Below are positions 7,292 to 62,175 of a DNA stretch of 64,000 bases, in pieces. Under the pieces are notes generated by a model. The model made no database searches. It was given only the letters and a program-made list of their open reading frames with translations, and was not told the origin of the DNA. Origin of the DNA: Prosopocoilus inquinatus (lineage: Eukaryota > Arthropoda > Insecta > Coleoptera > Lucanidae); assembly GCA_036172665.1 (NCBI GenBank), contig CM069875.1, forward strand, positions 20,491,806 through 20,555,805, given 5' to 3'. Both the position numbers and the translations under genes were made by a program. How positions within the stretch are numbered: position 1 is the stretch's first letter; each line of letters opens with the position of its first letter.

Positions 7292-7490
7292 AATGAATTT
7301 AACATATAAAATAGCGACATCTTACTATCGCTTTTTGACCTAACATTGCAGTAGGATAGACAAATTGAAGCGGGATTTGCTCCTAATGAGTCCCCCATGC
7401 AAGGCGGCCATGCTTGCTGTCAAAGCATAATGAAAGATTTTAGAAAAATTTTGTGCAAATCGTTTTTGATTGCAGTGAGAACCTCGAGCA

Positions 7491-7539
7491 GCCTCTGGAC
7501 AGCTGTTTCAGCCCTGTTTGGAGCTTCTTCAGCAGAAAC
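7491..7539 (-). ncRNA. Hammerhead ribozyme, left arm copy 1
   Basis: Minus-strand copy of the motif described in full at 8555-8603. A C-to-T change in stem II (AGCTC instead of AGCCC) replaces a C-G pair by a U-G pair, so the stem is kept. The core boxes and GTC are unchanged. Confidence 0.8.
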
Positions 7540-7802
7540 GTAGCTCGACATTCCCACTGCAGACCAAAAACGACTTGCCCAATTTATTCGCAAATGCGAT
7601 GTAAGAATGATGAACATATAAAATAGCGACATCTTACTATCGCTTTTTGACCTAACATTGCAGTAGGATAGACAAATTGAAGCGGGATTTGCTGCTAATG
7701 AGTCCCCCATGCAAGGCGGCCATGCTTGCTGTCAAAGCATAATGAAAGATTTTAGAAAAATTTTGTGCAAATCGTTTTTGATTGCAGTGAGAACCTCGAG
7801 CA

Positions 7803-7851
7803 GCCTCTGGACAGCTGTTTCAGCCCTGTTTGGGGCTTCTTCAGCAGAAAC
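7803..7851 (-). ncRNA. Hammerhead ribozyme, left arm copy 2
   Basis: Minus-strand copy, identical in stems and core to the reference copy at 8555-8603. Confidence 0.85.
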
Positions 7852-8114
7852 GTAGCTCGACATTCCCACTGCAGACCAAAAACGACTTGCCCAATTTATT
7901 CGCAAATGCGATGTAAGAATGATGAACATATAAAATAGCGACATCTTACTATCGCTTTTTGACCTAACATTGCAGTAGGATAGACAAATTGAAGCGGGAT
8001 TTGCTCCTAATGAGTCCCCCATGCAAGGCGGCCATGCTTGCTGTCAAAGCATAATGAAAGATTTTAGAAAAATTTTGTGCAAATCGTTTTTGATTGCAGT
8101 GAGAACCTCGAGCA

Positions 8115-8163
8115 GCCTCTGGACAGCTGTTTCAGCCCTGTTTGGGGCTTCTTCAGCAGAAAC
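8115..8163 (-). ncRNA. Hammerhead ribozyme, left arm copy 3
   Basis: Minus-strand copy, identical in stems and core to the reference copy. A fourth left-arm copy is cut at the inversion junction. Only its GCCTCTG (8427-8433), the strand just downstream of the cleavage site, remains. Confidence 0.85.
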
Positions 8164-8554
8164 GTAGCTCGACATTCCCACTGCAGACCAAAAACGACTT
8201 GCCCAATTTATTCGCAAATGCGATGTAAGAATGATGAACATATAAAATAGCGACATCTTACTATCGCTTTTTGACCTAACATTGCAGTAGGATAGACAAA
8301 TTGAAGCGGGATTTGCTCCTAATGAGTCCCCCATGCAAGGCGGCCATGCTTGCTGTCAAAGCATAATGAAAGATTTTAGAAAAATTTTGTGCAAATCGTT
8401 TTTGATTGCAGTGAGAACCTCGAGCAGCCTCTGCAATGTTAGGTCAAAAAGCGATAGTAAGATGTCGCTATTTTATATGTTCATCATTCTTACATCGCAT
8501 TTGCGAATAAATTGGGCAAGTCGTTTTTGGTCTGCAGTGGGAATATCGAGCTAC

Positions 8555-8603
8555 GTTTCTGCTGAAGAAGCCCCAAACAGGGCTGAAACAGCTGTCCAGA
8601 GGC
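8555..8603 (+). ncRNA. Hammerhead ribozyme, right arm copy 1 (reference)
   Basis: All elements of a type I hammerhead are present in order. Stem I 5' strand GTTTCTG (8555-8561). Core box CTGAAGA (8562-8568), fitting CUGANGA. Stem II AGCCC (8569-8573), loop CAAACA, GGGCT (8580-8584). GAAA (8585-8588). A very short stem III, CAGCTG (8589-8594), leading into the cleavage triplet GTC (8594-8596). Stem I 3' strand CAGAGGC (8597-8603). Stem I pairs 7 of 7 with two G-U wobbles. The first stem II pair is A-U rather than the usual G-C. Short-stem-III hammerheads of satellites, retrozymes and Penelope elements are known to work best as dimers, which fits the tandem arrangement. Self-cleavage is predicted, not shown. 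Confidence 0.88.
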
Positions 8604-8866
8604 TGCTCGAGGTTCTCACTGCAATCAAAAACGATTTGCACAAAATTTTTCTAAAATCTTTCATTATGCTTTGACAGCAAGCATGGCCGCCTTGCATGGG
8701 GGACTCATTAGGAGCAAATCCCGCTTCAATTTGTCTATCCTACTGCAATGTTAGGTCAAAAAGCGATAGTAAGATGTCGCTATTTTATATGTTCATCATT
8801 CTTACATCGCATTTGCGAATAAATTGGGCAAGTCGTTTTTGGTCTGCAGTGGGAATGTCGAGCTAC

Positions 8867-8915
8867 GTTTCTGCTGAAGAAGCCCCAAACAGGGCTGAAA
8901 CAGCTGTCCAGAGGC
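8867..8915 (+). ncRNA. Hammerhead ribozyme, right arm copy 2
   Basis: Exact repeat of the reference copy, 312 bp downstream, with all core and stem bases the same. Confidence 0.88.
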
Positions 8916-9178
8916 TGCTCGAGGTTCTCACTGCAATCAAAAACGATTTGCACAAAATTTTTCTAAAATCTTTCATTATGCTTTGACAGCAAGCATGGCC
9001 GCCTTGCATGGGGGACTCATTAGGAGCAAATCCCGCTTCAATTTGTCTATCCTACTGCAATGTTAGGTCAAAAAGCGATAGTAAGATGTCGCTATTTTAT
9101 ATGTTCATCATTCTTACATCGCATTTGCGAATAAATTGGGCAAGTCGTTTTTGGTCTGCAGTGGGAATGTCGAGCTAC

Positions 9179-9227
9179 GTTTCTGCTGAAGAAGCCCCAA
9201 ACAGGGCTGAAACAGCTGTCCAGAGGC
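9179..9227 (+). ncRNA. Hammerhead ribozyme, right arm copy 3
   Basis: Exact repeat of the reference copy, 624 bp downstream. Confidence 0.88.
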
Positions 9228-9490
9228 TGCTCGAGGTTCTCACTGCAATCAAAAACGATTTGCACAAAATTTTTCTAAAATCTTTCATTATGCTTTGACA
9301 GCAAGCATGGCCGCCTTGCATGGGGGACTCATTAGGAGCAAATCCCGCTTCAATTTGTCTATCCTACTGCAATGTTAGGTCAAAAAGCGATAGTAAGATG
9401 TCGCTATTTTATATGTTCATCATTCTTACATCGCATTTGCGAATAAATTGGGCAAGTCGTTTTTGGTCTGCAGTGGGAATGTCGAGCTAC

Positions 9491-9539
9491 GTTTCTGCTG
9501 AAGAAGCCCCAAACAGGGCTGAAACAGCTGTCCAGAGGC
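9491..9539 (+). ncRNA. Hammerhead ribozyme, right arm copy 4
   Basis: Exact repeat of the reference copy, 936 bp downstream. Confidence 0.88.
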
Positions 9540-9802
9540 TGCTCGAGGTTCTCACTGCAATCAAAAACGATTTGCACAAAATTTTTCTAAAATCTTTCAT
9601 TATGCTTTGACAGCAAGCATGGCCGCCTTGCATGGGGGACTCATTAGGAGCAAATCCCGCTTCAATTTGTCTATCCTACTGCAATGTTAGGTCAAAAAGC
9701 GATAGTAAGATGTCGCTATTTTATATGTTCATCATTCTTACATCGCATTTGCGAATAAATTGGGCAAGTCGTTTTTGGTCTGCAGTGGGAATGTCGAGCT
9801 AC

Positions 9803-9851
9803 GTTTCTGCTGAAGAAGCCCCAAACAGGGCTGAAACAGCTGTCCAGAGGC
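9803..9851 (+). ncRNA. Hammerhead ribozyme, right arm copy 5
   Basis: Exact repeat of the reference copy. This last copy is followed by only about 50 bp of unit before the element ends at 9902, so the 3' end of the insertion lies shortly downstream of a ribozyme. Confidence 0.88.
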
Positions 9852-9914
9852 TGCTCGAGGTTCTCACTGCAATCAAAAACGATTTGCACAAAATTTTTCT
9901 AAAATGAATTTAAC

Positions 9915-14120: not shown

Positions 14121-14270
14121 CCTTAAGACAGCGTTTCCCAAATTATTAGGTTTCGCGACCCCCTTTTGAGCTGTGTTATTGTAACGCTCGCCGAGGAAAC
14201 TGCACTCAAACATTATTTTTACTTTAGCATTAAAAAAAATAATAAGTTTTTTGTGTTTAATTAATTAATT

Positions 14271-15424
14271 ATGCCGAAGACACGTGAATTATCGACGGCC
14301 GAAAGAAGTCAAATAGTGCTATTAAATTCTTTAGGTTTTTCGCAAGTTGCGATTGCAAAAAAAATAAAATGTTTGCGTTTTGCCGTTCAATACACGTTAA
14401 AACATTACCGGGAAACGGGTTCTTACGAAAATAAAAAAAGAACCGGACGTAAACGCATTACCACAACTCGGGGCGACAGAAATTTAGAAAGAATGGCTTT
14501 GCGAGACCGACGAAAATCGTCAAAAGACTTAGCAAGCGAATTGTGGGTCCATCATAGAATTTCACTTTCGACAAGAACTGTTAGAAGACGCCTCCAAGAA
14601 GTCAATTTAAGTGGCCGTATTGCCCGCCGGAAGCCCTTGTTAACCGAGAGCCACAAAAAAAAAACGTCTTCAATGGGCAAGAAGACATCAACATTGGTCT
14701 GTTGAAGATTGGTCAAAAGTCTTATGGTCTGATGAATCTAACATTGAGGTAACTTTGAAGAGTGTTTTTTTTTCATTTAGTGATCACCTCAGACTACACT
14801 TTACGTTTTTACAATTTTTTTAAAAAGACAAAACTAAAACACTCCTTTTTTTCTTAATTATTCTAGCTTTTTGGACGACCTGGGACGCAGTACGTGCGGC
14901 GCAGAAAAGGCGAAGCATTTCACCCTGCTTGTATCGTACCTACAGTCAAATTTGGAGGCGGAAGTGTGATGATTTGGGGGTGCATGTCTGCGTCCGGCGT
15001 TGGAGAAGTTTATTTATGCGAAGGTCGCATGAATAGCGCTCGGTATACAGCGATGTTAGACGAGGTCCTAGAGCCATCTCTACTAAAATTATTTGATAAT
15101 GATGATCTCGATTTTCATTTTCAACAAGACAATGCGCCATGTCATCGTTCCAAAGAGACAACACGTTGGTTCACAGAAAGTCATGTGCGACTTTTAGAAT
15201 GGCCTGCACAGTCCCCAGATTTATCTCCCATCGAGCATCTGTGGTCCATTTTAAAACATAATGTGTCAAAAAAACATAATTGTGCATCGTTAGCGCTATT
15301 AAAGAAGCAAATTATAAAAGAATGGGAGGCTATACCTGCCGAAGTCTGCAAGAACCTTGTGTCAACAATGCCTTCTCGCATCAAAGAAGTAATTAAAGCA
15401 CATGGTGGTGCAACGAAATATTAA
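14271..15424 (+). pseudogene. Tc1-type DD34E transposase, one frameshift, one intron
   Basis: The N-terminus (MPKTRELSTAERSQIV...) has the paired helix-turn-helix DNA-binding region of Tc1 transposases, including a GRKR hook. The catalytic triad can be read: D in WSDES (codon 14731), D in QQDNAPCH (codon 15128) and E in SPIEHLW (codon 15233), with exactly 34 residues between the last two. The frame is broken once, in the run of ten A's near 14651-14660. A 118-bp stretch at 14749-14866 begins GTAACT and ends TTCTAG. Removing it joins WSDESNIE to LFGRPGTQ in frame, so it behaves as an intron. The rest, including GGGSVMIWGCMS, is continuous to TAA. A 3' terminal repeat is present near 15541, but no matching 5' repeat lies before the start. 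Confidence 0.85.
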
Positions 15425-20760: not shown

Positions 20761-21047
20761 TAAATTTGAATTTGGGTTTTTCTCAATTTTGGGTTCTTGC
20801 CAATAGAATTTCATGAACTAGAGCATATTACAGAAACTTGTGATTTTCAATCTTCACACTCGCAGTGCTGTTTTGAAAATTCCTATACAAGTGGAACTAT
20901 GTAAAGTCAAATTAAATTCATTCGAAATTACAATATTTCTTTAGGAAACTATTTCGGTGTGTTACAGAGTAACTAAACAACTAACGCGTAATAATTAATC
21001 TTTTGGAGCCATTTTCTCAGTCAAAGTTTAACTTTAATCTTCAATTA
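20761..21047. other. Intergenic, nothing recognised
   Basis: AT-rich spacer between a Penelope fragment and a large palindrome. Confidence 0.5.
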
Positions 21048-22280
21048 TACAGTGACCGCCAAAAGTTCGTACCATATGGGAACATTTTTTATTATTGATT
21101 TTTTTTTAACTTTTCGCGCTAATAGTTTGTGCATAAGCAAGTATAAGGGCAACTTATAGTGTTACTAAAAATAGCACTTATTTAAGATATGAATATAAAA
21201 AAATTGTAATTTGGAATTGCTGGACATATTAGACAAAATTTTTATAGGATTCAGTACTTATTTACAAAATGTGTTTCTTGATTGCCACACAAAATTTCCT
21301 TCGGTCTAGTATTTCGAAAAAGGGAAGATTTTCAATATTCTCAGTTTTGCTCAAGATGTAAAGCAGCCAATGATTATTTGGTATTTAACTCTTACGAGTG
21401 GTTTCATCCATACTCATAAAAAATATTTAATAGAATAAATTTTCCTCTTGAGTTCCAAATTGTTGCATGTACAAAAAAATTTGAAACAGTTTTTCACGTT
21501 TCTGGCGTAAGGCCATTTTTTACATACGATTTCGTGTTAATGTTTTTGATTTCTTCATAATACGTTTCTTATAATCCCAAATTAGTCTAATCAGACCGAA
21601 AATTGCAAGAATTGCATCTACTTTTCAGTTTGGATCTGTTTAAGATCCGTACTTATAAAATTGATATTTTTCGTGGTAGCCATGAAATCGTATTTACTGT
21701 TTGTACCAATATCGATTTTAAAAGTATGAAACAGGTCCAAACCAAAAAGTACACAGATACAATTCTTGCAATTTTCGGTGTGTTTAGGTTAAATTAGGGT
21801 TAGAAGATTTGTGTAATCAAGAAATCACACAATTTTAGGTAAAAAAAGCCTTGCACCAGAAACGTGAAAAATTGTTTCAAATTTTCTTGTGCGCGCAACA
21901 GTTAAAAACCCAAGAGCAGATTTAATTGTTTTAAATACTGCCTATGGATATAAATGAATAAGCTAACCACTCGTAAATGTTAAATGCTTAATGCTAATTG
22001 ACTGCTTCACATTTTGAGCAAAACTGAGAATGTAGAAAATCTTCCTTTTTCCGAAATACTAAACCAAAGGAAATTTTGTCTAATATGTCCGTTAATTCCA
22101 AATGACAACTATTTTCTAATTTTCGTGCAACTTTTAGCAACAATAAAAGTTGCTTACCAGCATTGTCCTACTTGTATTTGGTTATTGAACATACACAAAC
22201 TATTGGCGTAAAAAGTTTTTAAAAATAATCAATAATAAAAATTTTTCCCATATAGTGCGAACTTTTTGGCGGTCATTGTA
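21048..22280. mobile_element. 1.2 kb palindromic Tc1-type element, about 600-bp arms
   Basis: The ends CAGTGACCGCCAAAA (from 21050) and TTTTTGGCGGTCATTG (to 22278) are inverted and flanked by TA. The complementarity continues almost to the centre near 21680. For instance, GCTCAAGATGTAAAGCAG at 21352 matches the complement of CTGCTTCACATTTTGAGC near 22003, and AATTGCAAGAATTG at 21602 matches the complement of CAATTCTTGCAATT near 21761. The right arm lacks about 50 bp that the left arm and the 30.4 kb copy retain. No transposase is encoded; the short frames inside are products of the palindrome. Confidence 0.75.
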
Positions 22281-22342
22281 TGTTATTTTAAATAAATAAA
22301 TTGAAAAATTAAACTATGACTAAGAAATGTATTCTCTAAGCC

Positions 22343-23270: not shown

Positions 23271-23985
23271 TTTGTTCATTGATACATACTTAAGTTATCC
23301 AAACACACAAAACAAAATCGTACACAGCGAGTTAAATTGTACTATAATTTGTCAACTGAATTATCCTTAAATTCTGGAGTCCCCCAGGGACGTACGTTGG
23401 TATCTTGTCCTTTGCTTTTTATTATTTATATTGGCAACCTTTTTAATAATCTAAGAGTGAGTAAATTTCATTTATATGCTGATGATACTCAGCTGTATCA
23501 CTCTTTTTCTAAGTGTAATCTTACTCAAGGGTTTGCTGATGTTAATTCTGATCTAGACACTGTTCATTCCATTTGCACTAAACATTGTTTATCTCTTAAT
23601 CCTTTTAAGTCATAAGTTTTAATTTGTAGAAAAAATAGAGAATGGGTGGTAAGATTGAGGGATGAGGTTAAGTTGAATGTTGGTGGGGCAACTATCTCGA
23701 TGGTTGAATATGCTAAAAAGTTTAGGCGTCTACATAGACAGAAATTTGTGTTTAAGTTGCATGTCACGAAAACTATTCAAAGGGCTATCAGTCATCTTAA
23801 AGTTTTATACGCTTGTAAAGACTGTTTAGATATCAAACTAAAAAAAATGTTCTGTGACTCTTTGGTTTTGAGTCATTTTAATTATTGGGGCTCTGTTTAT
23901 GGACCGTCTTTAAATAAAAATGATATACAAAGAATTCAGCAGGTGCAAAACTCCTGTATTATTTCTTTTTTAAAAAATTAGGAAT
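23271..23985 (+). pseudogene. Non-LTR (CR1/jockey-type) reverse transcriptase fragment
   Basis: The frame from 23337 contains SGVPQG, PLLFIIYI and the catalytic YADDTQLY box, followed by LSLNP. These are reverse transcriptase motifs in the order and spacing of CR1/jockey-like non-LTR retrotransposons. A TAA at 23613-23615 interrupts the frame, which then continues in phase from 23616. A pair of compensating single-base shifts near 23708-23745 distorts the conserved LGV-ID region. The frame resumes with AISHLKVLYA, CDSLVLSHFNYW and IQRIQQVQN, typical of the post-RT thumb, and stops at 23981. No N-terminal fingers, endonuclease or poly-A tail are present. A dead, 5'-truncated fragment. Confidence 0.85.
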
Positions 23986-30324: not shown

Positions 30325-30694
30325 TATTCTAAGTACCAAATGCTCATTTACTTCTTCACATCTTGAGCAAAGCTGAGAATATCGAAAATCTTCCTTTTTT
30401 CGAAATACTATACCGAAGGAAATTTTGTCTGGCAATCAACACCCACATTTAGTAAGTAACTATTGAATTCTACTAAAATTTTGTCTAATACGACTAGCAA
30501 TTCCAAATTACGACATTTTTTTAATTTTCGTATCTCAAATAAGTGCTATTTTTAGCAACACTAAAAGTTACTCACTAGCATAGTACTTACATTTGGTTAT
30601 CGTACATACACAAACTATTGGCGCCAAAAGATTAAAGAAAAATCAATAATAAAAAAATTTCCCATGTGGTACAAACTTTTTGGCGGTCACTGTA
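30325..30694. mobile_element. Single arm of the 21.0-22.3 kb palindromic element
   Basis: About 365 bp match the right arm of the element at 21050-22278 and end in the same terminus (TGGCGGTCACTG, TA at 30693-30694). It retains the segment around GGCAATCAACACCCACA that the 22 kb arm has lost. The left end fades without a terminal repeat, so this is a half-element. Confidence 0.7.
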
Positions 30695-31595
30695 TATTTC
30701 GGAAAATACTTGAATATGCTTGGGAATTCTTTACGTTTTAAATTGCTTAAATTCCATGAACAGCGCCAGTAGGCATAGTTTCAGCAAAATTCTGATTACT
30801 CTATATTAAAAAATGTTGTTCTACCATGAGTATTTATCTTAAATATTTGGAAAATACAGAAAATTCAAATGAGCTGTATCCAAACAGAGAACAATATACA
30901 ATGTGAAAATTCAATTTCATAAAAGAACCCAATGTTGGTACAGGCTTAGCTCTGTAACTACACGAAAAAAGTAATAGTGGAAAAGAAATCATATTTACCA
31001 GCGTCCGTGAATCCTGGATATATGATTATAAAATCGATTTATTGTAACTTATATTTAATCTTAATATATAATTTTAATTTGAGACTTGAAATATCATATT
31101 CTCAAAAAAATAACTTCCATCTAACTGGAATTATTAAAAAGTTTTAGAGTAGTAGATTAAAAAAAATATATATACATAAAAATTTCAAAATTTTATTCAT
31201 AAATAAAAATGCTCATCTTCTCATGTAATTTTATACATACTGATGGTTTCTTTAAGATTTATGAGAAGGCGAAGACAGAACAGATGAAGCCAAATATAAA
31301 ATAAAGTGTAGAGCTTTCGCTTCTTTGCTTAAATCCCAGGCAGCACATTTTACTTTCTGAGTAGAACAGAAAGATATGAGGGGCCCGAGAGAAACGCATA
31401 CATTTCCAAATCAAAATAAAACATATCATGTAATACTATGCAGTGCTACGTTAAGAGCAATGGCATCTCAAAATATAAATTTTTCTGTTTTGTATTGAAA
31501 ACGAAGCTATTGACACACCCAAATAAGTATCTTTAATTGTTTGTGCAGTGGGCTCTTGGTGAAACATTATGAATAAATTGTAGTAAAAGAAAACA
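30695..31595. other. Intergenic, nothing recognised
   Basis: AT-rich sequence, no supported feature. Confidence 0.5.
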
Positions 31596-31630
31596 CTTGT
31601 ATTTAACTGTTTCACGAATTTATTTCAATA

Positions 31631-31677
31631 ACTCTGACATATGTTTCGGTAATACACTTTTACCATTCTCAAAGAGT
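31631..31677 (-). ncRNA. Hammerhead-like motif, Penelope left copy
   Basis: Same sequence as the motif at 33264-33310, read on the minus strand. Confidence 0.55.
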
Positions 31678-31701
31678 ATAAGATTAATACTAAATAAAGT
31701 T

Positions 31702-32744
31702 TTACTGCTGGGGCGTTATATTGCAGTCCAGGTCCATCCTTAGTTCCAGGTATTGATCAATAATTGGTGTATTCGGAAATTCAATGTGATTGTTGGTTAC
31801 TTGTTTGTTATTGTAAATGGCCCGTTTTATTTCTAAAGTTTCGAGTAAATTTAATTTTTTGCTTTTATGTATATGGTGTAATAGTTTACAGTCATCCATA
31901 TCGAAGAAATGGTTGTTATCAATGCAATGTTCTGCAAATCCGGTGTTCTTGATGTTATGCTTGATTGCTTTTTTATGCTCATCTAATCTAGTTTTTAATT
32001 TTCTACCACTTTGTCCGATATAGATGGCTTCACAATCTGCACAATTTATTTGATAGACACCTGTTTTTTCTAACTTTGTAGTCTGTTGTTTGTTGTTGAC
32101 AAGCATAGTACCGAGATTGCCTTTATTCACACTGACTATTTTGAGATCTATTTGTTTTAGAATTGAGGTGACTTTGTTATTGAAGGGTGCAAAGTAATTT
32201 ATATAATGCCAAATTTTATTGGGGTCATTATTGTTTACTACTGGATAAAATTGTTGTTTTAGTAACCGTTTTGTTTATTTTTAATCATTTTGTCTATTAA
32301 ATTTTCTTTATATCCGTTGTTTTTTGCAATGGCTTTGATTGTTTGTATTTCTATTTGGAAATTTTGTTCATTTAGTAGTATGTTAAATAGTCTGTGTATG
32401 TAACTGTGGACGGCTGCCAATTTTATTTTCCAATTTTGATTAGATTGTGCGGGTATGATAGTGTCCGTGTACGTGGGTTTTCTGTAGATGCTATATGTCA
32501 ATTTATTGTTATTTCGTTCGATGGTTAAATCTAAGAAGTTGACTTTTTTGTCTTTTTCTAATTCCATTGTGAATTGTATTTTATTATTTATTGTATTAAG
32601 GTGTGTCAGAAATTCATTTATTTGTCTTTCTGTTCCTCGCCAAATGCAGAAAATATCGTCGACATATCTAGCCCAAAATTGTACGTGTTTGATATGTTTG
32701 TGATTACTGTTGAATAGTTTTTCTTCGAAATCTGTCATAAAACT
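31702..32744 (-). pseudogene. Penelope-like RT plus GIY-YIG endonuclease, truncated
   Basis: Read on the minus strand. From the junction at 32744 the frame enters the reverse transcriptase just before its catalytic box (WARYVDDIFCIW), followed by VNFLDLTI and YRKPTYTD, conserved in Penelope-like RTs. A stop at 32259 is caused by a one-base shift: in the neighbouring frame the protein continues through KQQFYP and HYINYFAPFNNKV into the GIY-YIG domain. That domain has GVYQINC--C, IYIGQSGRKLKTRLDEH and a zinc-binding CC/HH set, and ends at 31702. RT copies the element's RNA and the GIY-YIG nuclease nicks the target. The RT palm and fingers upstream of YVDD are missing, so the copy is dead. Confidence 0.88.
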
Positions 32745-32810
32745 TACTTTGCACCCTTCAATAACAAAGTCACCTCAATTCTAAAACAAATAGATCTCAA
32801 AATAGTCAGT

Positions 32811-33239
32811 GTGAATAAAGGCAATCTCGGTACTATGCTTGTTAACAACAAACAAAAGACTACAAAGTTAGAAAAAACAGGTGTCTATCAAATAAATTGT
32901 GCAGATTGTGAAGCCATCTATATCGGACAAAGTGGTAGAAAATTAAAAACTAGATTAGATGAGCATAAAAAAGCAATTAAGCATAACATCAAGAACACCG
33001 GAGTTGCAGAAAATTGCATTGATAACAACCACTTCTTCGATATGGATGACTGTAAACTATTACACCATGTACATAAAAGCAAAAAATTAAATTTACTCGA
33101 AACTTTAGAAATACAACGGACCATTTACAATAACAAACAAGTAACCAACAATCACATTGAATTTCCGAATACACCAATTATTGATCAATACCTGGAACTA
33201 AGGATGGACCTGGACTGCAATATAACGCCCCAGCAGTAA
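32811..33239 (+). CDS. Penelope-like GIY-YIG endonuclease domain, 142 aa
   Basis: Plus-sense copy of the same C-terminal domain, uninterrupted from MNKGNLGTML to TAA. It has the GVY and YIG motifs, the catalytic arginine region GRKLKTRLDEHKK, a CADC pair and HHVHK histidines. It differs from the minus-sense arm at about ten residues or fewer. The reading frame is open upstream to the junction near 32745, so the ATG chosen here is internal to a once longer RT-endonuclease protein. It has no promoter or RT of its own and is almost certainly a truncated remnant rather than a free-standing gene. Confidence 0.75.
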   Translation: MNKGNLGTMLVNNKQKTTKLEKTGVYQINCADCEAIYIGQSGRKLKTRLDEHKKAIKHNIKNTGVAENCIDNNHFFDMDDCKLLHHVHKSKKLNLLETLEIQRTIYNNKQVTNNHIEFPNTPIIDQYLELRMDLDCNITPQQ

Positions 33240-33263
33240 AACTTTATTTAGTATTAATCTTAT

Positions 33264-33310
33264 ACTCTTTGAGAATGGTAAAAGTGTATTACCGAAACAT
33301 ATGTCAGAGT
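33264..33310 (+). ncRNA. Hammerhead-like motif at Penelope 3' end, U3/A8 core
   Basis: Stem I ACTCT (33264-33268) pairs with AGAGT (33306-33310). The core box reads TTGAGAA (33269-33275) where CUGANGA is expected. One extra T precedes stem II GGTAA (33277-33281) with TTACC (33289-33293). GAAA follows at 33294-33297. Stem III is AC-ATAT-GT, then the cleavage triplet GTC (33303-33305). Everything but the core box is canonical, and its two changes (C3U, G8A) would keep a Watson-Crick pair. Penelope-like elements are known to carry hammerheads in their terminal repeats. Confidence 0.6.
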
Positions 33311-33345
33311 TACTGAAATAAATTCGTGAAACAGTTAAATACAAG

Positions 33346-33583
33346 AAGAAATTCGATTAACGCAGTTATAACGGGAACCCAATTCAAGTATTAATTAAAA
33401 TCCTCAAAAGTGTTATTGTGACCTTGTAAACTTTGTCAGGAATATAACTATATCCAGAAAAGCGTCAAGAAAACGACAAAGCTGGATATCTGAAAGAGTG
33501 ACCTGTTTTCCCAGCTTGCCACTGCATATCGTCTGCAAACGCAAATAAATTATACTATTAATTATATTATTTACGAATAACTT
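33346..33583. other. Spacer after the Penelope pair
   Basis: No feature supported; shorter than 300 bp but sits between two related elements. Confidence 0.4.
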
Positions 33584-33645
33584 AAACAGCTGTACAGAGG
33601 CTGCTCGAGTAATTCACTGCAATCAAAAACGACTTGCAACAAAGT
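33584..33645 (+). mobile_element. Retrozyme fragment
   Basis: AAACAGCTGTACAGAGGCTG and CACTGCAATCAAAAACGA match the 312-bp unit from the GAAAC box of the hammerhead to just before its 3' end. The triplet at the cleavage position is GTA here. 5'-truncated; no duplication seen. Confidence 0.7.
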
Positions 33646-33899
33646 TTTTTTTTATTATTTACGTTATTTTTGTTTTGAAAGCCGGCTTCTAACTTAATTT
33701 GACTACTGTTGGTATTGGTACTTATCATGGTTGTCCCGAAGCGTATCTTTAAATATATAATATTAAATATTCCTATGTTTAACTTTGAAAAAAAAACATA
33801 TAAATGCATCTCAGGTTAAATATAAAAAAGACATAAAGTTGTCAACATTTGTTAATCGTTTTGCATTGTTCTTTAAATCATCGAGGATATTTTTTTCAC

Positions 33900-36717: not shown

Positions 36718-36900
36718 TCAATATTTATCGATAAAACAGCGACATCTTAAGATCGTTTTTTGACCTGACATTGCAGTAGGATAGACAAATCGTCTCTGCT
36801 GACGAAGCCCCAAGCAGGGCTGAAACAGCTGCACAGAAGCTGCTCCAGGTTTTCACTGCAATCAAAAACGATTTGCAACAAAATTTCTTCAATATTTATC
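36718..36900 (+). mobile_element. Solo retrozyme, 159 bp, 12-bp target duplication
   Basis: TCAATATTTATC stands on both sides (36718-36729 and 36889-36900). The enclosed 159 bp start with ATAAAACAGCGACATC, like the left end of the 7.3-9.9 kb insertion (ATAAAATAGCGACATC). They end GATTTGCAACAAAATTTCT, like its right end. About 60 bp are in minus sense and about 98 bp in plus sense, so the copy has the same head-to-head layout, reduced to its minimum. This pair of termini with equal-sized duplications defines the mobile unit. Confidence 0.85.
36792..36840 (+). ncRNA. Hammerhead ribozyme with altered cleavage triplet
   Basis: Stem I GTCTCTG with CAGAAGC (6 of 7 pairs), core box CTGACGA, stem II AGCCC-CAAGCA-GGGCT, GAAA, then CAGCTGCA. 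The cleavage triplet is GCA where the tandem copies have GTC. U16.1 is thus C, which breaks the A15.1-U16.1 pair and should disable cleavage. Confidence 0.7.
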
Positions 36901-37640
36901 CTTAAGGACAACAAATTTATTTAGATTAAGGAAATAGTGATTAGCTAATTGCATGAATTATGTTTGCTATTAAACAAAAAGTGCTGGCACACGTAGAACT
37001 TAAGCACTTTTAGATTATAATATATAAAATAAATATACTAAATAAATATAATTAATATTCAAGTGTGTCCAGTGTGATAACGCGTCATAGGAATTTCAAT
37101 GCATTTTTCTTTAATTATAAATTCCTACTTTCCTATCAAATTTATCATAAAGCAATAAACGAGATAAGCCATAGCCTAATTCATTTATTTTCGACTAGTA
37201 TTCTTTTCGAAACTCTTCATTTCTAACTTAATAATCTTTCTTTAGACATTTTAGTCATTACACACATCTAAGAGCCATATTGATCGTTGTATGTTAACCA
37301 CAAAACTTAGTTACCTCCTTTTAACACACAGATCTCTATTTTTTTCAATTTTCATTGTAATTAGTGTTTTTAAATTCATTTATATCTCTTGAAATTCTAT
37401 TTTCCTTGCATTGTTTAAAACATGAAAAACCGGATAAGTTGAACATATTCGGCTTTCTTTTTATACTAGATATAATAAAACAGTCATGGAGGTGGAAAAA
37501 TCTTTAAAATTTGGTACCCTCTACTTCTATTTAACATTAACATAATATATTTTCGATTTAGACTATTTTTTGATATGATATTTATACTGGTCTAAACGCT
37601 TCTTTAAATGTTGACCTGTTTTTCCTTCTCCTTCATAAAC
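36901..37640. other. Intergenic, nothing recognised
   Basis: AT-rich; the last part may already belong to the decayed Penelope copy that follows. Confidence 0.4.
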
Positions 37641-37930
37641 CGATTTAGAATTTGAAATAACATGTTTTGTAGTTTTCTCGATTCATTAAATAGGATTAAA
37701 AAATACTTAATTTAGTTCCAATTTAGTTATTTTTAAGTTTATGTTTCTCTGGACAATTCGTTTTCCACTTTAAAATTATGTTGTTTTTCGTTTCTCTTGA
37801 TAACTTATTTCTCTTGAAGACTTGTTTATTTTTTCCCACTCCTGATGAAGCTATCAAGCTATATCAAAAAGAGTGTTAGTTGCGATTTTACAGTGTCCGT
37901 TGTAAAGTAAAAATTATTTTCTTACAAAAA
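37641..37930 (+). mobile_element. Decayed Penelope-like 3' end (family of 43802-44360)
   Basis: Aligns in order with the minus strand of 44020-43800: TTTTGTAGTTTTCT, AATTTAGTTC, GGACAATTCGTTTT, TTTCGTTTCTCTTG, ACTTGTTTATTTT and CACTCCTGA-GAAGCTAT. No GIY-YIG motif is readable. At 37839-37879 the hammerhead-like box CTGATGA is canonical, but GAAAC has been lost. Confidence 0.6.
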
Positions 37931-38070
37931 CTTTTACTATATAAATTTCTCCTTGATCCTGATCAAGCTATATCAAAAAGAGTGTTAGTTGCGATTTTAC
38001 AGTGTCCGTTGTAAAGTAAAAATTATTTTCTTACAAAAACTTTTACTATATAAATTTCTCCTTGATCCTG
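37853..38070 (+). repeat. Tandem duplication, 2 x 109 bp
   Basis: 37853-37961 and 37962-38070 are essentially identical, beginning ATCAAGCTATATCAAAAAGA and ending CTCCTTGATCCTG. The duplication begins inside the hammerhead-like loop of the Penelope 3' end and covers its downstream sequence. Confidence 0.85.
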
Positions 38071-38344
38071 ATATCACTGACACTGAGCTCAACAGTTGTC
38101 AACAACTATCTATTTTAGATACTATTATGTTCCGGGCGAATGCAACAAGCTTTCTGATTTAACTTCGAATACCTAATATAGGTATAAACTCTACTGATTC
38201 TGCTTTCATTCTTGTTCGCCATAATTTTCGATTTTTTCCAACATTCTTAATTTCTTGTTTAATTTTACACCTATTTTCTCTTTAATTAATAATATTTCAC
38301 AAGCCGCAATTTCATTATTAAATTCTAAATTTATCAAAAAAATT

Positions 38345-51221: not shown

Positions 51222-51684
51222 CAGGCTGTCCGTTTTTCGAGTGCCACTATGGAGATCTCGCTTATTTTAAGAGATACAAAGTTGGTTAAATTCGGGCAAA
51301 GTTTCGCATTTTCATGCTGAATAATAATCTAAACAGAAATTTGAAATATCTTCAATGGTTTTGAAAATTTCAAACACTTTTTTATGAGAAATTCGAATAT
51401 GATATCCCCTTTTCAATAATTTTCAAAATGGCGGAGAAACACCTGGCAACTTCATTTTTTCATATGGTCGCTATTTTTAATTTTAACATTTTCAGATTAG
51501 GTAGGTTTTTATTTCTTTTTACAACGATATATCACACATGGTGGTCCAATATCACATTTTTGCCAAAAATCTAATTTTTCATTTTTTGCTTTGGAAAAAC
51601 AAAACGTTCTTTTATTCTGAACAAAAGTTTGAAAGTTTGATCCTATGTCAAGTTTTGTCAGTTTGCGCTAGTTTTATCGCGAAA

Positions 51685-51935: not shown

Positions 51936-52612
51936 AAATCCATCTGTCTCCTCAAAAGAAGTTGCAGAGTTTTCCGTTTTTACCTATTCTTATTATGTAT
52001 TTCGGGGATGCCCATTTCGAATTCTCAATAAAAAAGTTTCTGCATAATGTCTCTTGGTTAGAAATCTCTAGTACGATTAGTTTAGCACAAACGTAAAAGA
52101 CAAAACTTGACATAGGATCAAACTTTCAAACTTTTGTTCGGAATAAAAGAACGTTTTGTTTTTCCAAAGCACTCTTCGCAAAAAATGAAAAATTGGATTT
52201 TTGGCAAAAATATGATATTGGACCACCATGTGTGATATATCGTTGCAAAGAGAAAAAAATACGTAATCTGAAAATGTTAAAATCCAAAATGGCATCCATA
52301 AGAAAAAATGAAGTTACTAGATGTTTCTCCGCCATCTCGAAAATTATTGAAAAGGGGATGTCATAATCGAATTTCTCATAAAAAAGTGTCGGCCTTAGAA
52401 ATGCCTAGTATGATTAGTTAACGTTGAAAAAATTAAAAACGAAAATCAAGAATTTTTGTTTCTTTGCGAAATTTTCAAAACCATTGAAGATATTTCAAAT
52501 TTCTTTTCAGATTATTATTCAGCATGAAAATGCTATGTGTCTCTTAAGATAAGCGAGATCCCCACAGCCTGTATACCACCGGTCGCCGCCCATCTTGTGA
52601 GGCCCAGTATAT

Positions 52613-59216: not shown

Positions 59217-60595
59217 ACAAACATTTAAACTATAAGTAGTATCAGTTATTTCAGTCTATCCATTTTCTGAAAAATTTGTAGAAAATTTAGCTTAAATTAA
59301 AACCAACTGCAACGTTTTGCTGGTAAGGCGGATTTTGCTTTAAAATACATGAAATTCAAAGGTTCAATAGTGCTGAGACAGATGGCTCTGAACATAAAAG
59401 TGAATTAGGAGGGGAATACAATTTGAAGTTGCAGTCTGTACGTGGTCTGTACCAATTATGATACCAAATTATTATAACTGCTGAGCGAGTCTAGCGTTCG
59501 TAGCTTGACGTATGTGTTTATTTAAAATTAAATATATCATGAAATAACAATTACAGCAAATGTTTTGTACTGTCGCCGTCAAAAGAAAATGTAGCTGTAA
59601 TTAGGAACTGTCATTTAGGAATGACAAACAAATTAACTTCTTAAACATAAATTCATTTTCCATTTTTTACCTTAGCTGTATGGCTAACATGAACCTATAT
59701 TTTTCAAACAGAAATAATGACTGAACTTTATTATTGTCTGTCATCCGTAAATGTCTGTTCATAACAGCCACCCACAAAAAATCTTAGCAGTAGTTACATT
59801 ATACAGGGTGTTAATAAAAAAACCTATACAACGTTTGGCAGGTGATAGTAGAGATCAAAATAAGAAAAAAGTCTAATGAACCCATGTCCAATACTTAATA
59901 CAGGATGAGTAGTATAGCAAGCGGGATCCTAGGACACTTCGATGGCATGTTCCATCCGAAGAGACCACCGTTGAAATCCAACCCCAATTGTAGGGGTGTT
60001 TTTATCGGTGAAGAAGTAACCCCTGTTGGTTCTTGTGCATGTCGTCAATGACCAGAGGGTGTAAGAAGTGGTCAATGACCAGAGGCTTTCAAGGTCGCCT
60101 TGTGGACAATGCTGAGAGGCCTAAGAAGAAGTCTTTCAAGGTCATCGTCAATGACCAGAGGCGTAAGAAGAAGTGGAGGCTGGAGGAGCCTCGCCGCGGT
60201 TGCGCGAGCAGAGGTTTTCAAAGTCGCGCGCGCTGACCTTTGTACTGTCCTAGTACGAGCGGTATTTCTTGAACGCGTATCGTTTCGCAGGTTTGAACAG
60301 AATTTTTGCGCTACCTGTCACACAGGTGACACTTGTTTGTGTCGGTTTTTTTTTTTTTTTTGGTTGCTTACTGATTGAAGAAAAATGCAAAAATGTAGAT
60401 TTTTAGGAATCTGTGTTCCAACGTCGCTAGGGGGATCAGACGAGCGGTTACGCAAAGACGATAAGAGACGCTAGGTCAAACGAGGGATCAGGAAACTGAT
60501 AAAACGCTTCGTTAGAATGTAATATTTTATTTCAGACTTGTTCTAATATAATATTACAATTTTTACAAATAAAAAAAACTTTTAGTTATAATTTA
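59217..60595. other. Left flank of the Polinton region, with a GC-rich repeat
   Basis: TACAGGGTGTTAATAA at 59802 is a lone transposon-like end. 60040-60240 is GC-rich and repeats GTCAATGACCAGAGG at 60044, 60071 and 60147, with a weaker copy near 60104, each followed by GTAAGAAG-like sequence. It could be eroded basic coding sequence or a degenerate minisatellite. TTTTTGCGCTACCTGTCACACAGGTGACACTTG at 60303-60335 contains the palindrome GTCACACAGGTGAC. The Polinton boundary was not found. Confidence 0.4.
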
Positions 60596-61065
60596 CAATT
60601 AAAATAATTAGGATTTGTAAAATTCGTAAAAATGTAGATTTTTAGAAAGAATGTAATATTTTATTTCAGACTTGTTCTAATATAAATACAACAAATGTTA
60701 CAATTTTTACAAATAAGAAATTTAAAAAAAGTTGATATTCACATGTTATATGTACTTGTTACGGGTACAGTTTCATTATGATTATCAGAATCTGAGTCAT
60801 TAAAATTACAAATACAAAATTCTGATTCGACAATTAAAATAATTAGGATTTGTAAAATTCGTAAAAATGTAGATTTTTAGAAAGAATGTAATATTTTATT
60901 TCAGACTTGTTCTAATATAAATACAACAAATGTTACAATTTTTACAAATAAGAAATTTAAAAAAAGTTGATATTCACATGTTATATGTACTTGTTACGGG
61001 TACAGTTTCATTATGATTATCAGAATCTGAGTCATTAAAATTACAAATACAAAATTCTGATTCGA
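60596..61065 (-). repeat. Tandem duplication, 2 x 235 bp
   Basis: 60596-60830 and 60831-61065 are almost identical (CAATTAAAATAATTAGG ... TTCTGATTCGA). A partial third copy of the AGAATGTAATATTTTATTTC block lies at about 60515. The unit contains the last 30 or so codons of the adjacent 115-codon gene plus downstream sequence, so the gene's 3' end has been copied away from the gene. Confidence 0.85.
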
Positions 61066-61321
61066 TAACATCGTACAGATCTTTTTTACATGCTAAACAG
61101 TTCCCGATGTTATTGAAGCGAGAGATTTGATTTACGTTTATTTGATGCCTATCTTCGGTTGACAACATCGTATCGAATTCCATCAGACGTAAACAGTCAC
61201 TTATTTCAACGTTCCAGAATCTTTCACACGGTGCACATATGCGAATGACCAGATGTCGGTTACCAAATAATTGATAAACGGAATGCACCCGGGATACAAC
61301 GCAAACTTTGTACTCAGCCAT
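60974..61321 (-). CDS. 115-aa Cys-containing protein, unknown
   Basis: An uninterrupted frame starting MAEYKVCVVSRVHSVYQLFG and ending in an acidic Asp/Ser/Asn-rich tail (FNDSDSDNHNE). CAPCERFW (about residues 30-37), NCLACKKDL (about 73-81) and CIC near 92 could bind a metal. I do not recognise the family. It lies 71 bp downstream of the next gene in the same direction as the polymerase, so it probably belongs to the same element. Its last quarter is repeated downstream by the 235-bp duplication. An intact frame in decayed surroundings argues for a real, recently functional gene, but no homology supports this. Confidence 0.5.
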   Translation of the reverse strand: MAEYKVCVVSRVHSVYQLFGNRHLVIRICAPCERFWNVEISDCLRLMEFDTMLSTEDRHQINVNQISRFNNIGNCLACKKDLYDVIESEFCICNFNDSDSDNHNETVPVTSTYNM

Positions 61322-61605: not shown

Positions 61606-62045
61606 TTATTGAATACCGCTCGATCCAAATCCGTTATCACCTCGAACCGTATCTGATAGTTCCATCACTTCTTCTAATTCAGGGTAATAAATTTTTTGAC
61701 AGATCAGTTGTGCAACACGATCACCGCGCGTTATTTTGAACGTTATGTCGGAATGGTTAAATAATACGACTTTAATTACACCACGGTAATCTTCGTCGAT
61801 GACGCCTGCTCCGACTTCTACACCGTTTCTTGATGACAGTCCTGACCTTGATGCTATGCGTCCGTAACAACCTTCAGGAAGTTCAATTCGTATACCAATA
61901 TCGATGATTTCCCTGCCTCTTGCTGGAATAGTATAATCATAAGCGCTGCGTAAATCATAGCCAGCTGCTTTTGTTGAACTTTTGGTTGGTGCAAATGCGT
62001 GAGCTACAGCTTTCGTAAATTTTAAATGTGGTTGTTGATTTTCGG
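61606..62045 (-). CDS. dUTPase (trimeric type)
   Basis: Hydrolyses dUTP to dUMP, keeping uracil out of newly made DNA; in viral-type elements it supports the polymerase. All five motifs are readable in order on the minus strand: AGYDLRSAYD (1), GRIASRSGL (2), GVEVGAGVIDEDYRG (3), RGDRVAQLI (4) and RGDNGFGSSG (5), ending at TAA 61606-61608. Length (about 146 codons) is normal. No ATG opens the frame. Instead TTGTAG at 62046-62051 looks like a splice acceptor, and GTAAGT near 62091-62096 a donor, so a short upstream exon or a lost start is possible. The coding part shows no internal stop. Confidence 0.85.
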
Positions 62046-62175
62046 CTACAACATGAAAAAAAAAATATATTTAAGAAAAAAAAAAAAATACTTACATGTT
62101 GAAGTTATTCTGAAATTAGCCTTCAACTGTTTGATAAGTTTTGTTTTAAAACAAAAAAAGTTATTTCCTCCCCTT

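Follow-up and report, generated by a model that had tools for sequence, protein, structure and literature searches.

A head-to-head hammerhead retrozyme in an insect genome, probably inserted by a Penelope-like enzyme

Introduction

Animal retrozymes without long terminal repeats (non-LTR retrozymes) are non-coding retroelements with tandem units of 170–400 nt, type I hammerhead ribozymes, a G+C content below 45–50% and target-site duplications (TSDs) of more than 4 bp, and insects are among their hosts (Cervera and de la Pena 2020, PMC7229834; here and below, statements on published work apply to the sections of each source that were covered). Penelope-like elements (PLEs) have been named as candidate movers of retrozymes because both kinds of element have type I hammerheads and a tandem layout and because they occur together (PMC7229834, PMC7761336). 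In rotifers, PLE insertions combine tandem direct copies with a copy in inverted orientation and may carry a 3' tail; the arrangement is mostly head-to-head, with TSDs of 8–10 bp in the cases covered and none in some of them (PMC3846280). In assays with purified PLE protein, the two strands of the target are both cut and extended, AT-rich DNA is preferred, and reverse transcription begins inside the RNA, downstream of the hammerhead (PMC11167929). The present analysis concerns a 64,000-nt stretch of the Prosopocoilus inquinatus genome (assembly GCA_036172665.1, contig CM069875.1, positions 20,491,806 to 20,555,805; referred to as the window), in which an array of 312-bp hammerhead-bearing units, insertion 1, shows features of both a retrozyme and a PLE-type insertion.

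Results

Insertion 1 is a palindromic array of 312-bp units

Insertion 1 occupies positions 7304–9902 and is composed of 312-bp units in two inverted arms of ~3.6 and ~4.7 units. Tandem Repeats Finder assigned a period of 312 to both 7301–8433 (3.6 copies, 99% matches) and 8431–9905 (4.7 copies, 99% matches), and when the arms are paired with each other, 7301–8433 matches 9729–8597 with 2 mismatches in 1133 bases. A 12-bp direct repeat, AATGAATTTAAC, flanks the insertion at 7292–7303 on the left and 9903–9914 on the right. The exact 312-bp periodicity, the two inverted arms and the flanking 12-bp repeat with its coordinates had all been described in an initial annotation of the stretch, and all were recovered here.

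The units were numbered from the predicted hammerhead cut, with the base that follows it as position 1. In the left arm (7304–8433) the hammerheads are in sense on the minus strand, and this arm begins at unit position 194 (up to 197 if a 3-nt overlap with the TSD is included) and continues to position 1. In the right arm (8434–9902) they are in sense on the plus strand, and this arm extends from position 150 (147 if the inner-junction overlap is counted) to position 58 (or as far as 61 when bases shared with the TSD are included). The arms are arranged head-to-head, with the hammerhead sense pointing outward from the centre in each of them. At the inner junction (8431–8433), the 3-nt microhomology CTG is common to unit 1–3 of the left arm, read antisense, and unit 147–149 of the right arm. 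The junction joins unit position 1 to positions 147–150 and has no mirror symmetry, as all centres between 8425 and 8444 gave at most 90 mirror matches in 200. The flanks are not mirrored either (88 of 291 bases identical, near chance). In RNA form, the arms correspond to a stem of 1,133 bp with 2 mismatches and a loop of 163 nt (8434–8596), the right border of which is exactly the first hammerhead cut on the plus strand (8596/8597).

Comparison with one reference unit revealed three substitutions over ~2.6 kb, each confined to a single copy (at 7694, 7522 and 8545), a count that excludes three mismatches where the arms meet the flanks. Because TSDs lie at its borders and only these three single-copy variants are found, insertion 1 probably arose in one event. 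Variants limited to single copies fit repeated copying of one circle.

Each complete motif corresponds to a type I hammerhead

Insertion 1 contains eight type I hammerheads, three on the minus strand and five on the plus strand, which agrees with the number of complete motifs first annotated. All eight share the core elements CTGAAGA and GAAA, with GTC as the cleavage triplet. Stem I is seven pairs long, stem II has five pairs and the loop CAAACA, and stem III is short. The minus-strand motifs are located at 7492–7538 (cut 7498/7497; one stem II substitution, still pairable), 7804–7850 (cut 7810/7809) and 8116–8162 (cut 8122/8121), and those on the plus strand at 8556–8602 (cut 8596/8597), 8868–8914 (cut 8908/8909), 9180–9226 (cut 9220/9221), 9492–9538 (cut 9532/9533) and 9804–9850 (cut 9844/9845). 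Each was found both with the Rfam model RF00163 (type I hammerhead) and with our own motif scan.

The Rfam matches were obtained in a permissive scan, seven at 27.7 bits (E 6.5e-4) and one at 25.1 bits (E 4.8e-3), and all of them fall below the RF00163 gathering score of 34, so that a default Rfam scan of the window lists no hammerhead. The assignment is therefore based on structure and E-value, not on Rfam's own threshold. A further 33 matches in the permissive scan were weaker and concerned other families; the strongest was to a microRNA family (E 0.0097), and we take these matches to be due to chance or to the palindrome. The motif scan, which required a seven-pair stem I and a five-pair stem II, found the same eight hammerheads and no other in the window; in 40 random windows with the dinucleotide frequencies of this window, strict settings gave 0 matches and loose settings gave 13. 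A scan with different settings returned the eight together with two weak, AT-rich matches with altered cores elsewhere in the window. Exact patterns were also searched in contig collections, with 0 matches for the hammerhead core in prokaryote and viral contigs and 0 for the conserved block after the cut in viral contigs, misses that say little because these collections hold prokaryote and viral contigs. Judged from its sequence, the repeat-unit RNA looks able to cut itself.

The unit has the properties of an animal retrozyme

The 312-bp unit is inside the 170–400 range of animal non-LTR retrozymes, and its G+C content is 42.9%, compared with 33% in the window. Judged on length, it has no coding capacity: the longest stop-to-stop frame comprises 103 codons in a tripled unit and 127 amino acids across the junction (8291–8674). 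No LTR was seen at insertion 1. Inspection of the unit for RNA polymerase III promoter boxes gave no convincing pair, with A-box-like words on each strand (1 mismatch) and 3 mismatches in the best B box. The pDo500 satellite of Dolichopoda cave crickets is reportedly another insect tandem repeat with a hammerhead; it is a satellite family, and its likeness to the 312-bp unit is one of description only. Hammerheads in cave crickets are cited in the retrozyme study (PMC7229834), and the unit size, one hammerhead per unit, tandem copies, low G+C content, lack of coding capacity and TSD of more than 4 bp are all shared with the elements that it describes. The proposal in the initial annotation that this is a retrozyme in an insect is supported at the level of DNA features by unit size, hammerheads, G+C content, short frames and TSDs.

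Two properties set insertion 1 apart from those retrozymes. Its arrays are head-to-head, whereas the word 'inverted' is absent from the main text of that paper, and it has defined start sites inside the unit and an inner junction that falls at the predicted hammerhead cut, features not described in the sections covered (PMC7229834). The palindromic layout had been noted as unfamiliar from described retrozymes. This stands in so far as no inverted retrozyme array was found in the open-access literature searched; however, the layout is not a one-off, as it is shared by a second insertion in the window, and it has been published for PLEs (PMC3846280). The layout thus points to the mobilising enzyme and not to a new kind of element.

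Two older copies are present in the window

When the unit was searched against the 64-kb window, two further, diverged copies were found (insertions 2 and 3), giving three insertions in total; neither of the two had been pointed out in the initial annotation. Insertion 2 (36730–36888) lies between two copies of a 12-bp TSD, TCAATATTTATC, at 36718–36729 and 36889–36900. Its left arm (36730–36790, minus strand) consists of one unmatched base followed by unit 192 to 133 in antisense (55 of 60 bases identical to the unit), and its right arm (36791–36888, plus strand) starts at unit 270, crosses the hammerhead and stops at position ~54–56 of the following unit; over 36791–36904, a span that takes in the TSD, 98 of 114 bases agree with the unit. 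It is head-to-head like insertion 1, and its arms are ~8% and ~14% diverged from the unit. The cleavage triplet of its hammerhead reads GCA, so this ribozyme is probably dead, and the decayed motif was not reported by Rfam. Insertion 3 (33576–33652, plus strand) is a single, 5'-truncated arm with five unmatched bases followed by sequence from unit 299 to position ~57 of the unit after it (over 33581–33649, 60 of 69 bases agree), bounded by an 11-bp TSD, TATTATTTACG, at 33565–33575 and 33653–33663. The head-to-head layout is therefore found in two of three insertions, and tandem units only in insertion 1.

Insertion borders and end points recur

TSDs of 12, 12 and 11 bp lie at the borders of the inserts in all three cases. 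In control draws, a flush 11-mer was obtained for 6 of 200,000 random pairs of points, and a shared word of at least 11 bp anywhere in two random 46-base stretches was obtained in 9 of ~3000 draws. All three right ends fall within a narrow part of the unit, at positions 58–61, 54–56 and 57, i.e. 54–61 nt past the hammerhead cut (random expectation 0.0017, set up post hoc), and the left starts of the two two-armed insertions are at positions 194–197 and 192–193 (random expectation 0.036, also post hoc). The inner end of the left arm of insertion 1 is 0–3 nt from the predicted hammerhead cut, a coincidence with a chance of 4/312. This one junction suggests that synthesis of the left-arm complementary DNA (cDNA) stopped at an RNA 5' end that the ribozyme had created; an arm that ends at the cut fits the end of a linear RNA or a circle reopened while it was being copied.

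In the predicted fold of the circular unit, stem I extends into a long helix in which positions 9–47 pair with 228–267. The fold is much more stable than 100 shuffles (z −7.6; the antisense strand against the same shuffles gave z −2.5). The two longest unpaired runs are 186–210 and 48–69, and both start sites lie inside them; the mean predicted unpaired probability is 0.73 at positions 190–198 and 0.68 at 54–61, compared with 0.34 overall. Because of their location in unpaired runs, positions 54–61 and 192–197 are good candidate sites for contact between a DNA primer and the RNA.

A PLE remnant lies in the same window

A head-to-head PLE remnant is present at 31596–33345. Its arms form a 98% inverted repeat (31596–32204 against 33345–32737), each with a GIY-YIG domain (E 1.5e-6 and 1.8e-6), and a piece of reverse transcriptase (RT) is located in the left arm. 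Pfam gave no match for the RT piece itself, and 350 of 455 candidates were relatives at E <=0.001; among the best 120 of these 350, many carry RVT_1 and one, P0023, carries a GIY-YIG domain. The two arms have a common first base in the 3' region, and their overlap of 609 bp comprises the GIY-YIG coding part and the 3' region. An overlap of this kind with a common start needs two templates or a tandem one. The remnant shows that PLEs with a head-to-head layout have been active in this genome, and it is a candidate relative of the mobilising enzyme.

Within this remnant, a hammerhead-like stretch at 33264–33310, with a copy in the left arm, was drawn by eye (GAAAC-ATAT-GTC, with a five-pair stem I and a five-pair stem II). 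It has two core substitutions and one extra base, its would-be cut is ~40 nt short of the end that the two arms share, it was reported neither by Rfam nor by the motif scan, and it is not formed in a free fold.

Host and other repeats in the window

The closest named relatives of a dUTPase frame at 61606–62070, among the best 120 of 2986 matches, come from Trypoxylus, Aquatica, Ignelater and Diorhabda (65–71% identity), all of them beetles. These relatives place the host among the insects and probably among the beetles. About 0.5 kb from this frame, a 235-bp unit is present twice in tandem, almost without differences, at 60595–61068, and a 109-bp unit is perfectly duplicated in tandem at 37853–38072. 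An imperfect inverted repeat at 21043–22284, within which 21289–22079 matches itself in inverted orientation at 73%, has relatives at 30330–30699 and is perhaps the remnant of a palindromic DNA transposon. Transposase pieces occur at 14265–15424, with a DDE_3 domain in 14867–15424 and a frame at 14265–14705 that is N-terminal-like by eye only. A further pair of inverted repeats, 89–97% identical and ~0.4 kb apart (51306–51659 and 52099–52533), is a possible foldback element.

Discussion

Insertion 1 is best explained, in our judgement, as a young non-coding animal retrozyme that was probably inserted in a single event by a PLE-type RT-endonuclease. With GIY-YIG PLEs it shares inverted and direct tandem copies, the head-to-head arrangement, a short TSD, an AT-rich target and an internal start after the hammerhead (PMC3846280, PMC11167929). 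Among the retrozyme copies of the window, a fixed internal 3' end and a TSD are seen in all three and the head-to-head layout in two. The match to the PLE layout and to the behaviour of the purified protein argues for target-primed reverse transcription from both sides of the target by an enzyme of this type. Unlike PLEs, the retrozyme has a canonical, not a minimal, hammerhead, its two arms start at different unit positions, and its TSDs measure 11–12 bp, compared with 8–10 bp or none in the rotifer cases covered (PMC3846280). The frame for RT and GIY-YIG endonuclease that a PLE member requires is absent from the 312-bp unit. As the unit has no long frame at all, the retrozyme can only be a non-autonomous client.

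The following sequence of steps would account for the structure of insertion 1. In keeping with the published model for retrozymes, an array would be transcribed and its hammerheads would cut the RNA into units and short multimers, some of which would circularise. A putative PLE-type protein would then bind the RNA and make a cut in AT-rich DNA with the ~11–12 bp stagger that the TSDs record. Both DNA ends may prime at internal sites predicted to be unpaired, the right one at unit ~54–61 and the left one at ~192–197, where the observed arms start. The cDNAs would reach 4.7 and 3.6 units, possibly along a multimer or by repeated rounds of a circle. Finally, the left cDNA would run off the 5' end made by the hammerhead and join the other cDNA through the 3-nt overlap, with a head-to-head array as the outcome.

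Several observations weigh against this account. The end-point statistics were set up post hoc and derive from three copies in one window. The left arm of insertion 2 ends away from the hammerhead cut, and unmatched bases are present at the left borders of insertion 2 (one) and insertion 3 (five). In the comparison of the window PLE with the retrozyme no common sequence was found, neither Rfam nor the motif scan gave a clear hammerhead in this PLE, and its TSD is ill-defined, 6 bp at best. A 3' end shared by the retrozyme and the PLE, with 33581–33649 as the PLE end, was considered and rejected, since this segment has its own 11-bp TSD, TATTATTTACG, and belongs to the independent insertion 3. 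The biochemistry of PLEs also differs in two respects. In vitro, the PLE protein starts reverse transcription at the same sites on both strands (PMC11167929), whereas the starts of the retrozyme arms differ by ~136 nt. In the same study unprocessed RNA is the main template and, in the sections covered, no RNA-seq reads start or stop at the hammerhead cut, whereas one end of insertion 1 hints at cleaved RNA.

The strongest competing explanation is that the same retrozyme was mobilised by a long interspersed nuclear element (LINE) through classical twin priming, where one RNA is primed a second time, from the other DNA end, so that its 5' part becomes inverted. Twin priming by LINE-1 leaves an inverted 5' part, a TSD and short overlaps, and insertion 1 has an inverted 5' part, a TSD and short overlaps at its outer ends and inner junction. 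The window also contains an RVT_1 fragment (23283–23615) that is LINE-like by our own reading only. LINE-1 twin priming differs, however, in its single-copy inversion, its poly(A) and its lack of a ribozyme and of tandem arrays. The three right ends have no poly(A) or simple repeat, and all of them stop internally, 54–61 nt past the hammerhead. By eye, the TSD borders have no common TTTT/AA-like site, a point that leaves room for LINE clades with other habits. On balance, we regard mobilisation by a LINE as rather unlikely.

Still less probable is a PLE-type insertion in which the inverted arm arose by self-priming of the antisense template and not by priming from both DNA ends. Such self-priming was once proposed for head-to-head rotifer PLEs with palindromes at the inverted junction (PMC3846280). 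The inner junction of insertion 1 is not mirror-symmetric (at most 90/200 at centres 8425–8444), and both outer ends look like priming sites. Hammerhead-bearing tandem units were first described as satellite DNA (PMC7229834), and the locus could in principle be an ordinary satellite array partly inverted at the DNA level, or re-integrated circular satellite DNA; we consider this very improbable, because inversion would not predict TSDs on three insertions, near-identical units or recurrent end points. Least credible of all is an assembly or library fold-back artefact, a known class of error that produces long inverted repeats, since a fold-back would be mirrored at the junction and would take in flank, whereas the arms of insertion 1 differ in length and phase, its flanks are unmirrored, it has a 12-bp TSD, and the older insertion 2 has the same layout with arms ~8% and ~14% diverged.

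Retrozymes in insects, the layout of PLE insertions and the proposal that PLEs move retrozymes were already known. Within the literature searched, and in the sections covered, the head-to-head retrozyme insertion, the recurrent internal start sites and the junction at the ribozyme cut are new. As to the enzyme that mobilises animal retrozymes, the anatomy of these insertions is physical evidence that points to PLEs. A wider generalisation can be offered only tentatively: animal retrozymes may be clients of Penelope-like enzymes, with two dedicated unpaired priming sites flanking the hammerhead stem, one for each target strand, and a cDNA end set by the hammerhead cut, so that palindromic insertions would be a normal product and long ones would act as RNA hairpin loci (1.1 kb here) against the family. 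The account of insertion 1 predicts features that any genome can be scored for, namely TSDs of 11–12 bp, right ends ~55–60 nt past the cut, left starts at unit ~195 and head-to-head arms, and arm ends at the hammerhead cut offer a test of the role of the ribozyme in transposition. In a plus-strand transcript of insertion 1, cleavage could occur where the loop meets the stem. The 1,133-bp stem with its 163-nt loop would be a plausible source, in an insect, of small interfering RNAs directed against the retrozyme family.

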